In this document: positions 6,723 to 16,868 of the stretch, in pieces
Position numbering within the stretch: the first letter of the stretch is position 1
Layout of the letters: every line of letters starts with the position of its first letter
Virus record (IMG/VR): IMGVR_UViG_3300028829_004147
Coordinates: 1 to 25,423 of that record
DNA from: a virus
Length of the DNA: 25,423 bases
Direction: 5' to 3' (one strand)
The notes under the pieces: model-generated
The model's database searches: none
Seen by the model: the letters and a program-made list of their open reading frames with translations, nothing else
Told to the model about the DNA's origin: nothing
Translations under genes and position numbers: made by a program

Positions 6723-7208
6723 ATGGCAAGTCGTTATTACCCACAGAAAGACTTGGACACCATAGATAAATTTAATAGAGAATTATTAGGTGAACCAAAT
6801 TTAAGTAAAGATGGAATTATAAACCAAACCGTAATTGTATATAAGGTTTCAGTTTATGATACCGAATCCAATATGTATGGAGAATCAGCTGAAGGCAAAG
6901 TTTATAAGCCAGGTGTTCAATTACCTTGTCTTGTAGACGCAGAAGACTTTGACTTCAATACGGATGAGTTTGGACCAGATAAAAGACAAAACGTCGTATT
7001 TGCATTCCAAAGAGATTATTTGGTTGAAGTAGACCTTAGACCAGAAATTGGTGATATAGTAAATTGGAATGATGGTTATTTTGAAATCAATGCGTTCAAC
7101 GAAAACCAATTAGTAGGTGGAAACACAGACAACAATCACTCTATTATAGCAACTGCACATCTAACAAGATTATCAATAACAAATATTGAACAACAACGAG
7201 GTTTCTAA
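6723..7208 (+). CDS. 14: Neck protein, gp14-like head-completion protein
   Basis: ATG 6723 is preceded by AGGATAA as a weak SD and lies just after the gp13-like stop, so coupling is likely. The 161-residue product has beta-rich signatures of gp14/head-tail connector proteins: LVEVDLRPEIGDIVNWNDGY, then FEINAFNENQLVGGNTDNNH, and a C-terminal HLTRLSITNIEQQRGF. The 'PEIGD...Y/FEI' stretch matches the gp14 pattern. It is shorter than T4 gp14 (256 aa). It probably forms the ring between the gp13-like protein and the tail terminator. Its stop overlaps the next ATG by 1 nt. Confidence 0.62.
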   Translation: MASRYYPQKDLDTIDKFNRELLGEPNLSKDGIINQTVIVYKVSVYDTESNMYGESAEGKVYKPGVQLPCLVDAEDFDFNTDEFGPDKRQNVVFAFQRDYLVEVDLRPEIGDIVNWNDGYFEINAFNENQLVGGNTDNNHSIIATAHLTRLSITNIEQQRGF

Positions 7209-8899
7209 TGGCAAGAAATAAACCAATACCAAGAAGTCAACGATTGGAATTTAATCGTGGGACCAAAGTCAGTCGTAATTCGCCTGCCGTAAAGGATGAT
7301 GTAAAAAATGTATCAGTTGGTCTTATGGATATGGATAGTTCTATCTTGTTCTATTTTAATAATGTAATCAAGCCAGAAGTAGAGGAAAACAAAGAAAAGG
7401 TAAAGGTCCCTTGTTTATACGCATCACCAGAAAGATGGGTATCAATTCAAAAGAATGGATTTATAAGGGATAAACAGAATCAAGTTATTGTTCCATTAAT
7501 TGCATTTAAGAGAACAGCAATGGAAAAAAATCAAGACATTCCAATTGACAAGTTAGATGCGAACAAACCAAGAAACTTCTACTCATTTCAGAAAAAATAC
7601 TCACAAGTTAATCGTTACGACAAATTCAGTATCCAACAAGGTCTATCACCAGGTAGAGAATATTACAATGTAACAATGCCAGACTACGTAACTTTGACTT
7701 ATGAGTTTACAATTTGGACTTCATACATTGAGCAAATGAATAAAATTATTGAAAAGATAATGTATTCTGAGGGTTCTTATTGGGGTGAACCAGGTAAGAT
7801 GAGATTTAGAACTCAAATAGAAAGTTATACAGACGCTTCTGAAATGGAAGCAGAAAGACTTATAAAAACAACATTTACAGTAAATTTATTCGGATATATT
7901 TTACCTGAATCATACAACAATTATACGACAACACAAAAGTATCTTACACCTAAAAAAATTATAATGAGAGAAAATGCCGATACCACATTGGTAGATGAAA
8001 CAGGTAGAGTTTCATTGGCAGACAATTCAGCAGTTGAGGGTGGAGCCCCAACAAAAGATTTATTTTCAATATCCGTAACTGAGGGATTAACATTTACACA
8101 AGGAACGGGTGTAACGATATCCAATACGGGTGTTTCATTTGATGGCTCAAACGCACTAACGCAGGCAATATCTATTGGACAACCAGTAGGAACTACCGAT
8201 AGTGTTACATTTAATCAAGTAACAGCAAGTAGTGCTTTACAAATTGGAGATTCATCAACAAAATACACTACAACGGGTATAAGTGGTAGTATAGATATTA
8301 CGGGTTCATTAGTTACTACGGGTAATTTAACCGTAGCAGGAAATGCCACAATCAACGGAACACTAACCGCCAATGAATTCCATACCGTAATGACTTCTGC
8401 TTCAATATTGTTTGAAAGTGGTTCAACAAAGTTTGGTAATTCAACAGATGATAAACACGAATTTACAGGTAGTGCACAGACAACGGGTTCATTTAAGTTA
8501 AATGGATATAGTGTAGACGAGATATCAAACGACACAAGTTTAACAGATGGAAGTGCAACTGCATTAGTAACGGAGAATGCAGTAAAAACTTATGTTGAAG
8601 CAAACACAACAACCGTTTCAGGATATTTAAGAAAACAATTTGTAAAAGTATCATCCGGTGTTTCTAATGCTTCAACGGCAAGTTTTAGTAGTGTTGCAAG
8701 CGCATCCGCACCAACAGGATATACAGCAACAAGTGAAAATGATTTTATATTTTTTATTAATGGGCAATATATGGAACACGATGCTTTAACAATACAGCAA
8801 GCAGGTTCCAACTTTTTATTAAAGGTTAACACAAGTGGTATAGGATATACATTAGAAAGTGATGACGAAATTTTAGCAATTGGTAAATTTAATTCATAG
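7208..8899 (+). CDS. 15: Tail terminator (gp15-like) fused to a C-terminal fibre
   Basis: ATG 7208 overlaps the previous stop. The 563-residue product has two parts. Residues about 1-250 look like a gp15-type tail terminator/sheath stabiliser: VPCLYASPERWVSIQKNGF, then IVPLIAFKRTAM, then VTLTYEFTIWTSYIEQMNKI with IIEKIMYSEGSYWGE, then FTVNLFGYILPES. This parallels T4 gp15 (272 aa) motif by motif. Residues about 265-563 are Thr/Ser/Gly-rich fibre repeats (TGSLVTTGNLTVAGNATING, FESGSTKFGNSTDDKHEFTG). They end in a compact domain (about 435-563: VDEISNDTSL ... LESDDEILAIGKFNS) that is paralogous to the whole C-terminus of the next gene. T4 gp15 carries no such fibre, so this is an unusual fusion. 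It would place fibres at the neck. Confidence 0.8.
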   Translation: MARNKPIPRSQRLEFNRGTKVSRNSPAVKDDVKNVSVGLMDMDSSILFYFNNVIKPEVEENKEKVKVPCLYASPERWVSIQKNGFIRDKQNQVIVPLIAFKRTAMEKNQDIPIDKLDANKPRNFYSFQKKYSQVNRYDKFSIQQGLSPGREYYNVTMPDYVTLTYEFTIWTSYIEQMNKIIEKIMYSEGSYWGEPGKMRFRTQIESYTDASEMEAERLIKTTFTVNLFGYILPESYNNYTTTQKYLTPKKIIMRENADTTLVDETGRVSLADNSAVEGGAPTKDLFSISVTEGLTFTQGTGVTISNTGVSFDGSNALTQAISIGQPVGTTDSVTFNQVTASSALQIGDSSTKYTTTGISGSIDITGSLVTTGNLTVAGNATINGTLTANEFHTVMTSASILFESGSTKFGNSTDDKHEFTGSAQTTGSFKLNGYSVDEISNDTSLTDGSATALVTENAVKTYVEANTTTVSGYLRKQFVKVSSGVSNASTASFSSVASASAPTGYTATSENDFIFFINGQYMEHDALTIQQAGSNFLLKVNTSGIGYTLESDDEILAIGKFNS

Positions 8900-8907
8900 G
8901 GACGATA

Positions 8908-9771
8908 ATGAGTGTTCCTAAATTTATACTTAAAAACCCAATAACAATCGAAACACCAACAGGTGTTACAGGAAGTATTGATAGTAATGTTTTTGAATCA
9001 CAAGACTTTTTTTTAAAGAACTCAAGAAATGTTGTATTGAGAATTGGACAAGCAGTTTCTACGAGTTCAAATGTTCAGTTCTCAAATGTAACGAGTTCAA
9101 ATGTAGTAAAAATTGGTAACTTATTTTTGGGTGATGGATTCATTAGTAGTTCAGCAAGTTTAGTTTCACACACAGGTAGTATAGTCGTAACGAATCAACT
9201 AACTGGTAGTGGAAATATGACACTAAACGGAACACTAAATGCAACAAAGATTGAAGCAAGTGTTAGTGAATCTTTCACATTGTTTGAAAGTGGTTCAAGT
9301 ATATTCGGAGACACTACAGACGATAAACATATGTTGACAGGTAGTGTTGATATAACGGGTTCATTTAAATTAAATGGGTATCAAGTAGATGAAATATCAA
9401 ATGATACTTCATTGGCTGGCAGTAGTACAACTTCTTTACCAACTGAAAATGCGGCAAAACAATACTTTATATCTACTGGTGCTTTTGATAAAAACACTTA
9501 CATTAGAAAGTCATTTGCACATACAGGAAGTATTACAAATTCTGCAACTGCAAGTTTTACCGCGATAACAGCATCAGCACCAAGTGGACTAACAACTACA
9601 AGTGAAGAAGATTTTATGTTTTTTGTAAATGGTATGTTGATTGAGGGAGACGCATTAACAATACAACAAAAAACATCAACTAATTTAGAGTTAAGATTAA
9701 ACACATCAGGTTTAGGATACTCATTAGAATCAGATGATGAGGTCGTAGGATTTGGTAAATTTAATAGTTAG
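8908..9771 (+). CDS. Short fibre/whisker-like protein, paralogue of the upstream fibre domain
   Basis: ATG 8908 follows GGGA at 8899-8902, 8 nt after the previous stop. The 287-residue product lacks the terminator domain. It begins MSVPKFILKNPITIETPTGV, and then carries the same fibre modules as the preceding protein: IGQAVSTSSNVQFSNVTSS, FESGSSIFGDTTDDKHMLTG, SFKLNGYQVDEISNDTSL (from about residue 152) and the ending GLGYSLESDDEVVGFGKFNS. The near-identical C-terminal domain suggests gene duplication and perhaps co-assembly with its neighbour. Receptor or neck-fibre function is inferred from repeat type and position. Confidence 0.75.
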   Translation: MSVPKFILKNPITIETPTGVTGSIDSNVFESQDFFLKNSRNVVLRIGQAVSTSSNVQFSNVTSSNVVKIGNLFLGDGFISSSASLVSHTGSIVVTNQLTGSGNMTLNGTLNATKIEASVSESFTLFESGSSIFGDTTDDKHMLTGSVDITGSFKLNGYQVDEISNDTSLAGSSTTSLPTENAAKQYFISTGAFDKNTYIRKSFAHTGSITNSATASFTAITASAPSGLTTTSEEDFMFFVNGMLIEGDALTIQQKTSTNLELRLNTSGLGYSLESDDEVVGFGKFNS

Positions 9772-9783
9772 ATATTTATAAGT
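9770..9783 (+). promoter_or_regulatory. Late-promoter-like motif 5 (large fibre)
   Basis: The core ATATTTATAA (9772-9781) starts one base after the TAG of the previous gene and lies 22 nt before ATG 9804. Confidence 0.5.
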
Positions 9784-9803
9784 AGGAAAAATATAAGAGA
9801 ATT

Positions 9804-12449
9804 ATGGCAAATATTAAGGGAAAACAACTATCGGGTAATTTAGCAGTAACTAATGTTACGGCAAGTGGACACATTAGTGGAAGTAATACTTCTACGGGTT
9901 CATTTGGTAACGTGCAAGTCGTTAGAAGTATGACAGCAGCAAATGTTTCAGCATCAGTTATTCAAGCTACTCAAGGAACAATCGATATCCACTCATTGAG
10001 TGGTTACGTGGCCAACGAAAACATAGACCATACATCAGTAACACTAACAGCAGGAGATGGATTATCAGGCGGTGGAACGATAGCTGCAAATAGAAGTTTT
10101 GCAGTAGATTCTACGGTTTTAAGAACCACAGGTGATAATGTAGTCTCGAGTTCAGCTCAAATCGCATCAAATATTAGTGGTTCATTTACTGCACCAAGTG
10201 CGAGTTTCTCTACAAGGGTAACTACTGCAGAATCAGAACTAAGTAATACTTTATTTAGTAGTTCCGCACAAGTAGACCACGACTCTACAACAAATTTCGT
10301 AGCAAACGAACACATAGACCACACATCAGTTAGTATTACTGCAGGAGCAGGTTTAACGGGTGGTGGAACAATAGCATCCACAAGAGATATCGCAGTCGGC
10401 GCTGGAACAGGTTCAAATATTAGTGGTTCAAGTTTATTAGGTGTGGTTGGAACAGCAACACAAGGAACAATTGATATTCATTCATTGAGTGGATATGTGG
10501 CAAATGAGAACATAGACCATACAAGTGTAACAATTACCGCAGGTGCCGGACTAACAGGTGGCGGAACAATTGCTGCAACAAGAACTCTTGCAGTAGGAGC
10601 CGGAACAGGTGTTACCGTTAATGCAAATGATGTAGCAATCGGACAGGCAGTAGCGGCATCAAGCACACCAACATTCGCAGGACTTACCTTAACGGGTAAT
10701 TTAATATCAGATTCAATAATTAGTGGTAGTAGAGTGGCCACATTAGGAGCGATTACTGGTTCTACAATCTCCGCATCAATTCTTATAGGAACACAAATTA
10801 CTGGTTCCGAAATTTCCGCATCGGTTGCTCAGGCAACACAAGGAACGATTGATATACATTCTTTAAGTGGATATGTAGCAAATGAGAACATCGACCACAC
10901 CTCAGTAAGTGTTATAGCAGGAACTGGTTTAACAGGTGGTGGAACGATAGCTGCAAACAGAACTTTAAATGTGATAGGCGGTGATGGTATAACGGCTAAT
11001 GCAAATGATATAGCAATTACAGCAGCCCAAACAACCATTACATCTTTATTAGCAACTGATATTAAAATCGGTGAAGATGACCAAACAAAAATAGATTTTG
11101 AAACACCAAACGAAATACATTTCTACGCAGATAATACTGAACAGGTTTACTTGGGTGACAATATTTTTGGACCAGAATCCGATAGTGATGTAGATTTAGG
11201 TGCAACAGGTGTTAGATGGAAAGATGCTTTTGTAGATAGTGTAACTGCAACTGGTAATGTAGCAGCAGCTACCATTACAGCAACAGGCGATATCACCACA
11301 GAGGGCGATGTTATAGCAAAAAATTATATCGTAAGTTCTTCAGTAACCCATATGACTCAGTCATTCTTAAGTGGTTCAACTATATTTGGTGATGATACAC
11401 TCGATACACATATATTTACAGGTTCATTACTAATTACTGGTAGTGCACCGACCGACATCACAACAACAAATAGTATATTTGTAGGAAATGATATAACGGG
11501 TTCAATTATTAGTGGTTCAAGTTTATTGGGTGTGGTTGGAACAGCAACACAAGGAACAATTGACCACGATAGTTTAGCAAACTTCGTCGCAGATGAACAC
11601 GTTGCTCACGGCGATGTAAGTATCATAGCAGGTGCCGGATTAACAGGTGGTGGAACAATCGCAGCAAACAGAACTATCAATGTTGTTGGTGGAACAGGTA
11701 TAACTGCAAACGCCAATGAAATAACAACCACAGATGGTGAGATTGTTCACGATAGCTTAAGTGGATTTGTAGCAAACGAACACATAGACCATAGTGGAGT
11801 AAGTGTAACAGCAGGAACAGGATTAACTGGTGGTGGAACAATTGCCGCAACAAGAACCTTAAATGTTATTGGTGGTGATGGAATTACAGCTAACGCAAAC
11901 GACATAGCAATCACCGCAGCTCAAACAACTATTACTTCTTTAATCAATTCAAGTTTAACAAAAATCGGAACAGCAACAGACCAAGAATATATTAAATTTG
12001 ATACATCAAATGAAGTCAATACACACATTAACAATACCGAAAGATTAAGTGTAACAGCAGTTGGAGTAGAGATTACAGGACACGTATCAGCTAGTGGAAA
12101 TATAACGGGTTCAATAATTGAAGCAAGTGGTGATGTTATCGCATTTGGTTCATCAGATAGAAGACTTAAAGACAATATTACACCTATTGAGAATCCATTA
12201 GAAAAAATGGACAAAATTGGTGGTTATACATTTGTATGGAACGATAATCAATCAACATATACAGGAAAAGATGTTGGTGTGGTTGCACAAGAAATTGAAG
12301 AGATTTTACCAGAATTGGTAACAACAAGGGGAACGGGATATAAAGCAGTTAAATATGAAAAGATTGTTCCGTTGTTGATAGAATCAATAAAAGAATTACA
12401 GAAAAAAGTTCAAAAAATAGAAGAGAATTGTGATTGTTTGAACAAATAG
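9804..12449 (+). CDS. Large tail-fibre protein with C-terminal peptidase-S74 chaperone
   Basis: ATG 9804 has only a weak purine SD (AAGAGA, 9795-9800). The 881-residue product is a Thr/Ser/Gly/Ala-rich fibre. Six copies of a roughly 50-residue module (IDHTSVTITAGAGLTGGGTI type) alternate with shorter IxGSxISGS strands. Around residue 510-550 it shares the FLSGSTIFGDDTLDTHIFTG module with both preceding fibres. From Ser784, SDRRLKDNITPIENPLEKMD, then FVWNDNQS, DVGVVAQEIEEILPELV and VKYEKIVPLLIESIKELQKK are the hallmarks of the endosialidase-type intramolecular chaperone (peptidase S74). That domain trimerises the fibre and then cuts itself off near the Ser before DRRLKDN. The mature fibre would be about 784 residues. 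Confidence 0.9.
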   Translation: MANIKGKQLSGNLAVTNVTASGHISGSNTSTGSFGNVQVVRSMTAANVSASVIQATQGTIDIHSLSGYVANENIDHTSVTLTAGDGLSGGGTIAANRSFAVDSTVLRTTGDNVVSSSAQIASNISGSFTAPSASFSTRVTTAESELSNTLFSSSAQVDHDSTTNFVANEHIDHTSVSITAGAGLTGGGTIASTRDIAVGAGTGSNISGSSLLGVVGTATQGTIDIHSLSGYVANENIDHTSVTITAGAGLTGGGTIAATRTLAVGAGTGVTVNANDVAIGQAVAASSTPTFAGLTLTGNLISDSIISGSRVATLGAITGSTISASILIGTQITGSEISASVAQATQGTIDIHSLSGYVANENIDHTSVSVIAGTGLTGGGTIAANRTLNVIGGDGITANANDIAITAAQTTITSLLATDIKIGEDDQTKIDFETPNEIHFYADNTEQVYLGDNIFGPESDSDVDLGATGVRWKDAFVDSVTATGNVAAATITATGDITTEGDVIAKNYIVSSSVTHMTQSFLSGSTIFGDDTLDTHIFTGSLLITGSAPTDITTTNSIFVGNDITGSIISGSSLLGVVGTATQGTIDHDSLANFVADEHVAHGDVSIIAGAGLTGGGTIAANRTINVVGGTGITANANEITTTDGEIVHDSLSGFVANEHIDHSGVSVTAGTGLTGGGTIAATRTLNVIGGDGITANANDIAITAAQTTITSLINSSLTKIGTATDQEYIKFDTSNEVNTHINNTERLSVTAVGVEITGHVSASGNITGSIIEASGDVIAFGSSDRRLKDNITPIENPLEKMDKIGGYTFVWNDNQSTYTGKDVGVVAQEIEEILPELVTTRGTGYKAVKYEKIVPLLIESIKELQKKVQKIEENCDCLNK
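9970..11900 (+). repeat. Six in-frame fibre repeats
   Basis: Related units begin near 9972, 10264, 10452, 10832, 11542 and 11735. Each encodes the H-x-S-L-x-x-[YF]-V-A-x-E-[NH]-[IV]-x-H series and then GLTGGGTIAAxRT. Units 3 and 5 share the VVGTATQGTID lead-in, and units 4 and 6 share the VIGGDGITANANDIAIT ending, indicating duplication or homologous exchange within the gene. The unit spacing is irregular. Confidence 0.85.
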
Positions 12450-12842: not shown

Positions 12843-15251
12843 ATGGCAGAGAGAATAGTAAGTCCTGGTGTATTTACCAGAGAAAAAGATTTATCTTTCT
12901 TACCACAAGGAATTTCAGAAATTGGAGCAGCATTAATTGGACGAACAGAAGAAGGTCCAGCATTTGTTCCAACACAAGTAAGAAATTTTGCGGAGTTTGA
13001 AGAGATATTTGGTAGCGAAAACCAGAATTTTTATGTTCCTTTTACAGCAAAGGAATACTTACGAAGCGCAGGAACGGTAACAATCGTTCGTGTACTAGGA
13101 CTTGGCGGATATCAAAATGACTTTATAGCATTGGGATTGTCGGGTTCATTTGGTGGTTCAACAAATCAACACCAAATAGCAGCAGTATTAAAGCCGTCAG
13201 CAGGCGGTCTTACACTTGATTTAGATGGGGCATCCAGTGCTTCATTTTCAGTAAGTAGTAGTTGGAGTTCATCCACATTAAAAGTAACAAATGGTTCAGG
13301 TGGATTCGATACCCACTCGTTCTCATTTAACACAGGTTCAGCAGAATATATTGACAAAGTATTTAGTTCAGACCCATTAACTACCGAAAAGGGCGTATAT
13401 TTATATAAAAATTATATGGATGTTCAAACAATGGGTGGTATGGATTTAAATGTATCTGCAAGTATAGCTAGTGGTAGTACAAATAGTTTCTTATTTGACT
13501 ACAAGGTAGCTACAACACCTTCAATACAATCACAATTAGTTGGTGGTTCAAGAACAAGTTTATTTAAAGTAAATACTCGTTCACACGGAGACGCTCAAAA
13601 TTCAAAATTTAAATTAGCAATACGTGATATTAGAGAGCCAGTAGATGTAGCAGGAAGTGATTATGGTGACTTTGCTATTGAACTTAGAAGAAACAATCCA
13701 GGTCAAAACAACGATAATGAAGTCTTAGAAAGCTTCCAAAATTGTAATTTTGATGAGGATTCAGTAAACTATTTACCAAGAAAAATTGGTGATAGATATG
13801 TAACTATTGATTCAAATGGAAAATTAACCACTAATGGTGATTATCCAAATCAATCTAAGTTTATTTACATTAGTGATTATACTAGCTTAGTTGGAATTTC
13901 AAAAGGATTAGTTCCTATGGGATTCGGAGCAGTATCATCACCACACAACTCAACATTAGCACTTGACGATAGATTTAAACCATCACTTGATTCATTAGCA
14001 ACAATTCCTTCAGCTTCATTTAAAGGAAACTTCAACGAAGGACAATTAAATAAGTCTGGAAATTTTGATGCGAATGTATTCTATGGTTTTGATTTTGATA
14101 GAGAAACTAACAAACAATATTTAGCACCATTACCATTGAGTATTAGTAATACAACAGGTAATGTTACTATGAGTTTAGAAAATCAATTAGGACACGCAGA
14201 CGCTTCCACATTAGGAACAACATTTTCTGACGCAAGTGAGAAAATTACATTAGCACTTTCTCACAAAGACCAGAGAAAGTTCGTTGTACCGTTTCAAGGT
14301 GGTTTTGATGGATTAAATCCAGCAGTAACAGCATCAGTTGGTTCAGCAATAACTGCAGCTAATTCACAAGGATTTGATTTTACTACATCACTTTCAAGTG
14401 GTTCAGTAGCATTTAAACGAGCAATCAATGCAGTATCCAATCCAGATGAGTTCGATATTAACTTGTTGGTAACACCAGGTATTATCCACTCAATACATCC
14501 AAGCGTAACAAATCACGCTATTTCAAAAGTAGAAGATAGAGCAGATTGTTTCTATATTATGGACGGGTCAGTATATGGTCGTTCAATAGACAATGCAGTA
14601 GCTGATGTTAAAACATTGGATAGTAATTATGTAGCAACATATTATCCTTGGGTTAAAGTAATTGATGAAGTTAAAAACAAACCAACTTGGGTTCCACCAT
14701 CAGTAGTATTGCCAGGTGTATATGCAAATACTGATAGAGTAGCTCACGAATGGTTCGCACCAGCAGGTCTGAATCGTGGTGGTTTACAAAATGTAACAGA
14801 AGCTCAAACAAGGCTAACGCATGCGGAAAGAGATGAATTATACGAAAATCGTATTAATCCTATCGCAACTTTCCCAGGTCAAGGTGTAGTAGTGTTTGGA
14901 CAGAAAACTCTACAAGGAAAACCAAGTGCATTAGATAGAATCAATGTAAGAAGATTGTTGATTAGACTTCGTAAGTTTATCGCATCTACTTCAAGATTCT
15001 TAGTGTTTGAACAAAACAACAATGCAACAAGAAATCGTTTCTTGAATCTTGTAAATCCTTTCTTAGAGCAAGTTCAAGCAAACTCAGGATTGACAGCGTT
15101 TAGGATTGTAATGGACGAAAGTAATAATGGTCCAGATGTTGTGGATAGAAACCAATTAGTTGGTCAGATATTCATACAACCAACCAGAACAGCTGAATTC
15201 ATAGTCTTAGATTTCGTAGTTCAACCAACAGGAGCAGCATTTGCAGACTAA
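12843..15251 (+). CDS. 18: Contractile tail sheath protein, gp18-like
   Basis: ATG 12843 has AGGAG at 12831-12835. The 802-residue product starts with the sheath hallmark MAERIVSPGVFTREKDLSFL, then AALIGRTEEGPAFVPTQVRN and YLRSAGTVTIVRVLGLGGY. The C-terminal sheath domain is clear: LNRGGLQNVTEAQTRLTHAE, DELYENRINPIATFPGQGVV, FGQKTLQGKPSALDRINVRR, and the terminal FIQPTRTAEFIVLDFVVQPT. It polymerises around the tube and contracts at infection. It is longer than T4 gp18 (659 aa); the extra length lies in the middle (about residues 100-480), probably surface-exposed insertion domains. It has its own promoter motif and a strong terminator, so it is expressed as a single-gene unit. Confidence 0.96.
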   Translation: MAERIVSPGVFTREKDLSFLPQGISEIGAALIGRTEEGPAFVPTQVRNFAEFEEIFGSENQNFYVPFTAKEYLRSAGTVTIVRVLGLGGYQNDFIALGLSGSFGGSTNQHQIAAVLKPSAGGLTLDLDGASSASFSVSSSWSSSTLKVTNGSGGFDTHSFSFNTGSAEYIDKVFSSDPLTTEKGVYLYKNYMDVQTMGGMDLNVSASIASGSTNSFLFDYKVATTPSIQSQLVGGSRTSLFKVNTRSHGDAQNSKFKLAIRDIREPVDVAGSDYGDFAIELRRNNPGQNNDNEVLESFQNCNFDEDSVNYLPRKIGDRYVTIDSNGKLTTNGDYPNQSKFIYISDYTSLVGISKGLVPMGFGAVSSPHNSTLALDDRFKPSLDSLATIPSASFKGNFNEGQLNKSGNFDANVFYGFDFDRETNKQYLAPLPLSISNTTGNVTMSLENQLGHADASTLGTTFSDASEKITLALSHKDQRKFVVPFQGGFDGLNPAVTASVGSAITAANSQGFDFTTSLSSGSVAFKRAINAVSNPDEFDINLLVTPGIIHSIHPSVTNHAISKVEDRADCFYIMDGSVYGRSIDNAVADVKTLDSNYVATYYPWVKVIDEVKNKPTWVPPSVVLPGVYANTDRVAHEWFAPAGLNRGGLQNVTEAQTRLTHAERDELYENRINPIATFPGQGVVVFGQKTLQGKPSALDRINVRRLLIRLRKFIASTSRFLVFEQNNNATRNRFLNLVNPFLEQVQANSGLTAFRIVMDESNNGPDVVDRNQLVGQIFIQPTRTAEFIVLDFVVQPTGAAFAD

Positions 15252-15280: not shown

Positions 15281-15315
15281 GAAAAACCCCCGGTTCGACA
15301 TCGGGGGTTTTTTGT
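15281..15315. terminator. Strong bidirectional terminator after sheath
   Basis: A perfect 11-bp stem AAAAACCCCCG (15282-15292) / CGGGGGTTTTT (15302-15312) encloses a 9-nt loop. It ends the sheath transcript on the + strand and can also stop the minus-strand island transcripts. Confidence 0.93.
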
Positions 15316-15333
15316 GTAATGAAAGGAGACAAA

Positions 15334-15434
15334 ATGCGAAACAAAATCTGCAGGTGATTTACGCCAAATCACCAAAGGTTGTTTCTAATATCGTGAAACA
15401 CTACATAACCCAATTCGGTTCCAAATTATCGTAG
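15334..15434 (+). pseudogene. Possible broken or frameshifted micro-ORF
   Basis: An excellent SD (AAAGGAG, 15322-15328) precedes ATG 15334, but this frame stops after seven codons (TGA 15355-15357). In the -1 frame an open stretch runs from the A tract at 15343-15346 to TAG 15432-15434. A single -1 slip or a missing A would give a 33-residue peptide, MRNKNLQVIYAKSPKVVSNI onward. It may be a degraded gene, a -1 frameshift or chance. No family is recognised. It lies downstream of a strong terminator with no promoter motif. Confidence 0.25.
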
Positions 15435-15442
15435 TCACCGAA
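15353..15442. other. Cluster of three hairpins, possible structured RNA
   Basis: Three consecutive inverted repeats are present: GGTGATTT/AAATCACC (15353-15373, perfect 8 bp), TGTTTC/GAAACA (15380-15400) and TTCGGT/ACCGAA (15414-15442). On the minus strand they lie in the 3' untranslated part of the 131-aa gene. They could be a 3' stabilising structure, a small RNA or remnants of mobile DNA. It is not a tRNA: no acceptor or T-loop geometry fits. Confidence 0.35.
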
Positions 15443-15457
15443 AACCCACGAATCTAA

Positions 15458-15853
15458 TTACTTAGGATAAATAGCAAAGGTATCGGCGTATTCAGCCAAA
15501 CAATAACCTTGAGCTCTTACATAGCCGTAATGTGTTTTGCTACAACCCCTATACTTAATTCTATAATTGCCAGTCTTCATCATAGTTCTAACCACAGCAT
15601 TCCATCTATACATCATAGGAATACCCTTATATAAAGCTTGTTCAAAGTAAGGAGCTTCATAGTCTTCCAACCTAACAGCCGGTTGATTAGTATTAGCTTC
15701 ATACAATTCCATAGGATTGTGTGCATATTGATAGACATTCATAGTAAATGTCCTATTGTCAAAACCAAAAGCTCTTGGAACTTTCGTATCAGCAAAATCT
15801 CTCATATAAATACCTTCGGTATCAGTTGTAATCGTTTCATTATTTTCAATCAT
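15458..15853 (-). CDS. Unknown 131-aa protein on the opposite strand
   Basis: On the minus strand the start is ATG at 15853-15851, with AAAGGA 7 nt upstream. The frame opens eight codons further, but that start lacks an SD. The 131-residue product begins MIENNETITTDTEGIYMRDF and includes VPRAFGFDNRTFTMNVYQYA, GIPMMYRWNAVVRTMMKTGN and two cysteines near the C-terminus (YRGCSKTH and GYCLAEY). It is rich in Tyr and aromatic residues, with no membrane segment. I do not recognise it. A TTGACA-17-TATATT promoter stands upstream. It interrupts the sheath-tube order on the opposite strand, so it looks like inserted cargo, probably expressed early (inference). Confidence 0.75.
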   Translation of the reverse strand: MIENNETITTDTEGIYMRDFADTKVPRAFGFDNRTFTMNVYQYAHNPMELYEANTNQPAVRLEDYEAPYFEQALYKGIPMMYRWNAVVRTMMKTGNYRIKYRGCSKTHYGYVRAQGYCLAEYADTFAIYPK

Positions 15854-15885
15854 TTCGTTTTCCTTTATCATTATCATAACACTAT

Positions 15886-15914
15886 AATATACAAATACTA
15901 TTTGTAAATGTCAA
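15886..15914 (-). promoter_or_regulatory. Sigma70-type promoter for the 131-aa gene, with palindromic operator
   Basis: Read on the minus strand: -35 TTGACA (15914-15909), a 17-nt spacer, and -10 TATATT (15891-15886), a near-consensus host promoter. Between them lies a perfect 15-bp palindrome ACAAATACTATTTGT (15891-15905), well placed for a repressor or activator site. The promoter shares AAGCTTGAC and TATATTATAGT with the second island promoter. Confidence 0.75.
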
Positions 15915-15922
15915 GCTTTTTT

Positions 15923-15997
15923 TTAATTATTTTCTTCAAAGAGTTCTTCTTCACAATCATCACAAAGGAAAAAGCCGTCTATTTCAACGCCACTCAT
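15923..15997 (-). CDS. 24-residue CxxC micro-ORF
   Basis: On the minus strand ATG 15997-15995 begins 25 codons ending in TAA at 15923. The product starts MSGVEIDGFFLCDDCEEELF and ends EENN. Cys12 and Cys15 form a CxxC pair in a highly acidic peptide, which suggests metal or redox binding or a truncated zinc-knuckle. The start lies about where the transcript of the second sigma70-like promoter should begin, so it would be leaderless (no SD). It could also be a chance frame; the well-placed promoter is the main support. Confidence 0.45.
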   Translation of the reverse strand: MSGVEIDGFFLCDDCEEELFEENN

Positions 15998-16002
15998 ACT
16001 AT

Positions 16003-16031
16003 AATATAGTTATTCCTAATGACAAAGTCAA
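16003..16031 (-). promoter_or_regulatory. Second sigma70-type promoter on the minus strand
   Basis: Minus strand: TTGACT (16031-16026), a 17-nt spacer, TATATT (16008-16003). Upstream AAAAAGC and downstream ATAGT match the promoter at 15886-15914, so the two look duplicated. This copy lacks the palindrome in its spacer. It faces away from the tail-tube promoter. Confidence 0.7.
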
Positions 16032-16102: not shown

Positions 16103-16117
16103 GTTATATTTATTAAT
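16103..16117 (+). promoter_or_regulatory. Late-promoter-like motif 8 (tail tube)
   Basis: The core ATATTTATTA (16106-16115) lies 36 nt before GTG 16152, the same distance as motif 4 from its gene. The bases 16032-16100, between it and the divergent minus-strand promoter, are AT-rich and hold nothing I can identify. Confidence 0.55.
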
Positions 16118-16151: not shown

Positions 16152-16640
16152 GTGGCAGATTTTATAGACCCAAATGAAATGTTTTTTACACCATTTGAAC
16201 CAAAGTTATCAAATAGGTTTATTATGAACATTGAGGGTATTCCAGCATTTTTGGTTAAAACAACAGGAAGACCTAATTTAAATTTAAACGAAGTTGCACT
16301 TGACCATATTAATGTTAAAAGATATGTTAAAGGTAAAGCTGAGTGGCAAGCACTTACAGTAACTCTTTATGACCCAATCGTTCCAAGTGGAGCACAAGCA
16401 GTTATGGAGTGGGTAAGATTACATCACGAATCAGTAACAGGTCGTGACGGATACTCAGACTTCTATAAAAAAGATATTACATTTAATGTATTAGGACCAG
16501 TTGGTGATAAAGTAGAAGAGTGGACTTTAAAAGGTGCATTCATCACTGCAGCTAACTTTAGTGATATGGATTATTCAGCAACTAATGTTTCTGATATTTC
16601 ATTAACACTAAGATACGATTACGCAATCTTACAATTCTAA
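16152..16640 (+). CDS. 19: Tail tube protein, gp19-like
   Basis: GTG start at 16152 with AGGAG at 16140-16144; no ATG fits in frame nearby. The 162-residue product is the size of T4 gp19 (163 aa). It has FEPKLSNRFIMNIEGIPAFL, VKTTGRPNLNLNEVALDHIN, ALTVTLYDPIVPSGAQAVME and the ending VSDISLTLRYDYAILQF, all typical of the tube fold. It forms the stacked hexamer rings inside the sheath, around the tape measure. It is split from the sheath gene by the minus-strand island; in T4, 18 and 19 are adjacent. Confidence 0.95.
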   Translation: MADFIDPNEMFFTPFEPKLSNRFIMNIEGIPAFLVKTTGRPNLNLNEVALDHINVKRYVKGKAEWQALTVTLYDPIVPSGAQAVMEWVRLHHESVTGRDGYSDFYKKDITFNVLGPVGDKVEEWTLKGAFITAANFSDMDYSATNVSDISLTLRYDYAILQF

Positions 16641-16652
16641 CGGAGAAAAATT

Positions 16653-16868
16653 ATGTGGGCAATATTCAAAGACAACAATGAATACAACGAGAAATCAATA
16701 ATTGGTTTCGGAGCGTTTACGATAATGGTTTTGTTTGCAATGGCAGATGTTGTAACTGGACTTATGGGTAAAGATTTAGTAATCAACGATGTTGTTTACA
16801 ATTCATTCCTATTCACTACATTAGGTAGTTTCGGTATCGCAGGTGCTGAAAAAGTTTTAAAAAAATAA
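16653..16868 (+). CDS. Small two-helix membrane protein, possible holin
   Basis: ATG 16653 has GGAG at 16642-16645. The 71-residue product has a short charged N-terminus (MWAIFKDNNEYNEK). Hydrophobic helix one follows (about 16-37, IIGFGAFTIMVLFAMADVV), then a polar loop, helix two (about 49-64, YNSFLFTTLGSFGIAG) and a basic tail EKVLKK. Size and topology are like class II/III holins, but no lysin is present in the window, so holin is only a candidate. It is co-transcribed with the tail tube gene, 12 nt downstream. Confidence 0.7.
   Translation: MWAIFKDNNEYNEKSIIGFGAFTIMVLFAMADVVTGLMGKDLVINDVVYNSFLFTTLGSFGIAGAEKVLKK

Follow-up and report, generated by a model that had tools for sequence, protein, structure and literature searches.

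The gap between the tail sheath and tail tube genes in an uncultured clade of T4-like phages probably serves as a landing site for small early genes and usually also holds a structured RNA. It was identified in a 25.4-kb piece of the genome of an uncultured T4-like phage (hereafter the window, meaning the whole stretch of DNA analysed), where the island extends from ~15287 to 16031 and takes in the RNA (Table 1). A preliminary description of this DNA held that two small minus-strand genes separate sheath and tube. Both ORFs were recovered between plus-strand flanks; the 105-nt RNA had been missed, and the truncation of the micro-ORF was not visible without relatives.

We propose that most of the genes move as units, each together with a strong sigma70-type promoter, and enter the slot oriented opposite to the late genes. 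Transcription by the host RNA polymerase would begin as soon as infection starts, before the phage late system becomes active, and would stop at a bidirectional terminator common to the sheath gene. The predicted minus-strand transcript would encode X131 and, in this copy, a truncated zinc-ribbon-like microprotein, and its last part would be an RNA built from hairpin modules. The short homology for recombination between co-infecting phages may come from shared promoters, gene ends and the terminator, a putative route to the mosaic pattern observed below. The island proteins would most likely serve to take over particular hosts early in infection or to counter their defences.

Table 1 Features of the island and its flanks in the window.
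Feature	Position	Strand	Basis and remarks
Tail sheath gene	12843..15251	+	Resembles annotated tail sheath of Microcystis phage Mel-JY01 and Flavobacterium phage immuto; left flank
Bidirectional intrinsic terminator	15287..15313	both	Hairpin 15287-15307, T run on each side
Structured non-coding RNA	15345..15449	-	Covariance model (CM), covariation, conservation
X131, gene for 131-aa protein	15458..15853	-	ORF; Shine-Dalgarno AAAGGAAA ahead of ATG
X131 promoter, TTGACA-17-TATATT	15886..15914	-	Sigma70-type
24-aa micro-ORF	15923..15997	-	Truncated copy of CxxC microprotein
Micro-ORF promoter, TTGACT-17-TATATT	16003..16031	-	Sigma70-type
Late-type motif of tube gene, TATATTTATTA	16105..16115	+	Placement; oriented away from island
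Tail tube gene	16152..16640	+	PHROG 4542 tail tube, E = 4e-30; right flank

Occupancy of the sheath-tube gap and shuffling of its genes

Relatives of X131 were detected in 115 stretches of IMG/VR viral contigs (146 with the alignment as query), and all relatives found were virus contigs with T4-type genes. L-numbers below denote the loci retrieved from these related contigs. X131 lay on the minus strand of the sheath-tube gap in every retrieved relative that had both flanks. Among 68 tube relatives lacking X131, the gap measured only 39-199 bp in 61 and 325-1002 bp in seven, most of the latter enclosing unrelated genes. Other gap genes in these X131-free relatives were found on the minus strand (L089, L105) or the plus strand (L094, L097, L107, L160). 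The nearest named relatives, Microcystis phage Mel-JY01 and Flavobacterium phage immuto, had no annotated gene in the gap. The suggestion that the locus holds cargo was borne out by this comparison, with mostly near-empty gaps, other genes in a few and X131 in at least 115 contigs. A limited literature search found no published insertion between genes 18 and 19.

The minus-strand gene sets varied across 110 distinct islands, with at least eight small genes occurring in differing combinations. This repertoire included a CxxC microprotein of 32-39 aa (Zn), proteins of 48, 62/74, 72, 91, 82, 81 and 104 aa, and X131. Gene orders included Zn-X131-RNA, p48-X131-RNA, p74-X131-RNA and p91-Zn-p72-p74-X131-RNA, as well as the X131-free orders p81-p82-RNA, p72-RNA and RNA alone.

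Mosaicism was also apparent at the sequence level. L050 and L174 encoded a tube protein identical to that of the window and an X131 only 65% and 59% identical, respectively, and L003 combined 97% identity in X131 with 77% in the tube and 69% in the sheath. Across 86 loci, the similarities of X131, tube and sheath were uncorrelated. The borders of DNA matches clustered near 15450, 15840-15850, 15920-15930, 15990 and 16040, i.e. near the ends of X131 and the promoters. The sheath-tube gap is thus very probably an exchangeable cassette island.

Proteins encoded in the island

Comparison of X131 with 40 relatives gave dN/dS values of 0.21-0.46, and this purifying selection marks it as a working gene. 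An upstream in-frame ATG would extend its product to 139 aa. A search of 50,697 named phage records recovered no homologue, not even when the C-terminal half was used as query at E = 10, and searches of Pfam, PHROGs and PDB sequences gave no credible match. One match to a 76-aa viral protein (A0A7D7JKE7, E = 1.9e-3) was unnamed and uninformative. The AlphaFold2 model was weak (pLDDT 70.9, pTM 0.60) and matched no fold in the PDB. A host-directed early role is our best guess for X131 from genomic context alone, and we put it at slightly under an even chance. Host takeover, anti-defence or exclusion, as put forward in the preliminary description, are candidate functions. The X131 alignment showed two exchangeable versions of the N-terminal third, VPRAFGFDNRTFTMNVYQY and VTREIPNHYGYYNDAGEYVENGTHTITHYRY, which suggests recombination within the gene.

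The micro-ORF product is a truncated copy of a CxxC...CxxC microprotein (MIDEIICEECGVEIDGFFLCDDCEEE...) in which the first CEEC was lost. The full-length form was matched in 98 retrieved loci, counted from contigs that may repeat, and the truncated form occurred only in the window among the retrieved loci. The full-length relatives share paired CxxC knuckles with the Gin family (PF10764) and similar zinc-ribbon microproteins, whereas the window copy retains one CxxC fewer and scored 16.9 bits against Gin, under the curated cut-off of 27. Its ATG begins 6 nt behind the -10 box, and several island genes have a start codon ~5 bases after theirs. This short spacing suggests leaderless mRNAs, and the micro-ORF message is possibly one of them.

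Promoters, terminator and expected timing of expression

Exact matches to TTGACW-N17-TATATT occurred only twice in the window, one ahead of each minus-strand gene, and both had the common flanks AAAAAGCTTGAC...TATATTATAGT. Shuffled sequences gave a mean of 0.01 matches and none reached two, in agreement with the promoter pair first noted here. The label host-type fits in so far as the pattern is of the sigma70 type; a match to the sigma factor of the host is assumed. Promoters of this type lay within 80 nt upstream of 91/100 X131 copies and accompanied all Zn genes in relatives (73/73), and p48 (9/9), p72 (9/9) and p91 (3/3) each had a promoter directly upstream. Some copies of p74 and p82 had no promoter of their own, so parts of the islands are operons.

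On the plus strand, a (T/G)ATATTTATWA motif was found upstream of several genes, the tube gene among them. As the bare motif was no more frequent than expected from shuffles, its standing as a late motif derives from placement only. The proposed difference between a plus-strand late motif and the island promoters was therefore upheld for placement and not for enrichment.

The terminator, which one scan had not reported, contains a hairpin that folded at -17.4 kcal/mol on the plus strand (z = -2.9) and -15.4 kcal/mol on the minus strand (z = -2.6). Given this strength on both strands, both the sheath mRNA and the minus-strand transcript could be closed there, consistent with the proposal that the sheath terminator insulates the island on one side. 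Relatives carried equivalent GC hairpins. It was the sole terminator of the island in the window, with none between the cassettes.

The same promoter type was found ahead of a handful of genes in four large related contigs, including non-structural genes. In three of the four, it preceded the gene for an 834-aa protein whose best match was the family-B DNA polymerase of Mel-JY01. Furthermore, p74 preceded gp32 and/or uvsX in the same orientation in L339, L340, L342, L343, L353 and L358; in the L342 contig, the sheath-tube gap measured only 325 bp. In L322, an X131 homologue and p74 were found among a series of tiny genes close to five tRNA genes. These contexts indicate that the island draws on a gene pool found elsewhere with replication and small accessory genes. 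Judging from promoter class and companion genes, the island is very probably expressed early. The term 'early cargo or moron' used in the preliminary description can accordingly be kept for early cargo. Like a moron, the island has its own promoter and terminator and is autonomous of the flanking genes; the strict meaning of the word, a gene carried by a prophage, would hardly suit a T4-like virus. Rfam manA RNA (RF01745) was observed upstream of gp32 in L342 (6122-6322) and L358 (4954-5152).

A structured RNA at the end of the island

The RNA occupies 105 nt of the minus strand between X131 and the terminator. Hairpin P1 pairs 15442-15437 with 15419-15414, and P4 pairs 15373-15366 with 15360-15353. 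P3 pairs 15399-15395 with 15385-15381 and is enclosed by a GGGUU/AACC(U/C) helix, in which 15380-15376 pairs with 15411-15407 or, alternatively, 15447-15443. As GGGUU is present twice, the exact arrangement is uncertain. The window copy, itself part of the model, scored 105.6 bits, and the exact core was found in 109 stretches of viral contigs. No Rfam 15 family matched above its gathering score. Across 31 distinct sequences, many of them closely related, the loops and the 11-nt core were invariant (GGGUUAUGUAG being an invariant stretch), and loop sequences were conserved more strongly than stems. In P1, compensatory changes were seen at three pairs, one of which occurred as four pair types; the signal vanished when the P1 partners were slid against each other. 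P4 folded as a hairpin in sequence variants with little in common. P0/P2 and P3 were invariant or nearly so, confining covariation to one helix and P4. This is, in all likelihood, a real structured RNA.

Nearly all retrieved copies adjoined the end of the sheath gene, including those in phages without X131. The exceptions were L210, which is a fragment of 748 bases, and L216 and L222, where the RNA neighbours gp32-uvsX. The hairpins also varied as modules, with two copies of the P1 module and no P3 in L008 and L017, and P3-P4 without P1 in L186 and L248. In L065, L076, L080 and L089, the main RNA was replaced or preceded by a different 3' hairpin, in which the loop was GTTAATATCGTAATCGTAAGA and the stem varied. 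On the plus strand, a 7-codon ORF (MRNKICR, 15323-15357) with a Shine-Dalgarno sequence and ATG overlaps the 3' end of the RNA.

Several further readings of the RNA were considered. A scan of bacterial genomes with the core alone gave two exact matches, one within a coding gene and one without P1, and both were judged chance. A CUAC/GUAG pseudoknot was plausible; it showed no covariation, was broken in L021, and L186 and L248 had the 3' module without the 5' one. The invariant GUUAUGUA corresponds to the core of the ligand selected by T4 RegA (PMC3014915), a match noticed post hoc. A search for RegA (PF01818) in six related virus contigs and two reference phages returned nothing, with no positive control giving a signal either. 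A CRISPR-repeat mimic, prompted by a GUUUC/GAAAC hairpin, had no contextual support.

Most likely, the RNA would either stabilise the 3' end of the message or be released as a small regulatory RNA. The first option, that the modules are cis-acting 3'-UTR elements shielding early mRNAs from exonucleases, is a serious contender that falls somewhat short of an even chance. The RNA usually lies close behind a stop codon; in some phages that have no gene ahead of it, a promoter, Shine-Dalgarno sequence and ATG-TTT-TAA stand there instead (L184, L186, L229, L248). Translating a two-codon ORF reportedly raises expression in cis, possibly through mRNA stabilisation, and such ORFs can also be toxic (PMC8708949). 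However, simple protection would not need loops more conserved than stems, and in L017 a promoter stands immediately before the RNA with no evident ORF between them. Action in trans is possible and likewise falls somewhat short of an even chance. A two-codon ORF, ATG-AAT-TAA, was also seen upstream of the RNA in L216, and L089 had a promoter, Shine-Dalgarno sequence and ATG-TTT-TAA ahead of the structured RNA or a short alternative.

We tentatively put forward a new small-RNA family with interchangeable hairpins and fixed loops. Its members would be transcribed immediately from host-like promoters, sometimes led by a two-codon ORF, and could have RNAs or proteins of host or phage as targets in trans. 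Their main home would be the tail-gene slot, in which the neighbouring protein genes come and go.

Comparison with known systems and less probable readings

Promoter-early stem-loops (PeSLs) consist of an early promoter fused to a stem-loop terminator. Those of RB49/phi1 and other T4-like phages are, by second-hand description, the closest known arrangement, in which host-type early promoters, small accessory genes and modular shuffling are combined much as in the island (PMC4503421). As far as that description goes, the island differs in having one main slot within the late tail cluster, in its opposite strand, and in usually ending in a conserved structured RNA. Strong sigma70-like promoters at the cassette borders and mosaic shuffling there would fit true membership of the PeSL system. 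However, no terminator is coupled to each promoter: the micro-ORF stop (15923-15925) abuts the X131 promoter, whose -35 box ends 8 nt away at 15914. Since no stem-loop separates the cassettes, we regard the island as similar in working principle and unlikely to be a PeSL member.

The nearest known variable site in a structural cluster is the g15-g18 hyperplastic region of cyanomyoviruses, which likewise places variable accessory genes within the T4-like structural genes (PMC2984593). That region holds 4 to 14 genes with predicted metabolic functions (PMC2984593), in contrast to the few tiny reversed genes found here between sheath (g18) and tube (g19). Non-coding RNAs of unknown or partly known function have been described in T4-like phages, namely CfrI of S-PM2 and RNAC/RNAD of T4 (PMC2984593, PMC3014915). 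CfrI is antisense to a homing endonuclease gene and psbA (PMC2984593), and RNAC/RNAD lie in the tRNA region (PMC3014915), whereas the island RNA has exchangeable hairpins and no Rfam family match. According to a 2010 review, no small trans-acting regulatory RNA from T4 had been functionally characterised (PMC3014915). The structured RNA is probably previously undescribed. The slot would represent a constant place of exchange for probable early genes within a conserved late cluster of T4-like phages, with gene exchange traceable in more than 100 natural variants. Its small proteins form a candidate list for host takeover or counter-defence, and its RNA adds a candidate phage RNA family.

That the RNA region is functionless in itself, being either what is left of a coding gene or a group of terminator hairpins, is improbable. 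The single-sequence fold was unremarkable (z = -1.24), the RNA was absent or replaced by a shorter element in some X131 islands, and a 25-codon GTG ORF spans some copies, all of which would suit such a reading. Against this stand the invariant loops and core, the compensatory changes in P1, a promoter belonging to the RNA itself in some phages and the separate terminator downstream. Indels of 1-2 nt also break the frame, arguing against a conserved reading frame.

Finally, the location within the structural cluster, with X131 between sheath and tube in all retrieved copies that have both flanks, could point to late genes in inverted orientation that act in virion structure or assembly or as a tail chaperone, a reading we consider very improbable because the island genes lack the late motif and have the promoter class of the DNA polymerase, the gaps of most wider relatives are too short to hold them, companions occur upstream of gp32-uvsX and one X131 copy in a tiny-gene array outside the tail cluster, and X131 matched no tail family.

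Other features of the window were noted beyond the island. Upstream of the sheath gene, 7208-12449 contains large fibre-like genes with repeats, and the C-terminal end of an 881-aa fibre-like protein resembles, by eye, an intramolecular-chaperone (S74-type) domain. Behind the tube gene, 16653-16868 encodes a 71-aa predicted membrane protein whose identity in relatives was two-humped, mostly 65-79% or 95-100%, suggesting two exchanged alleles.
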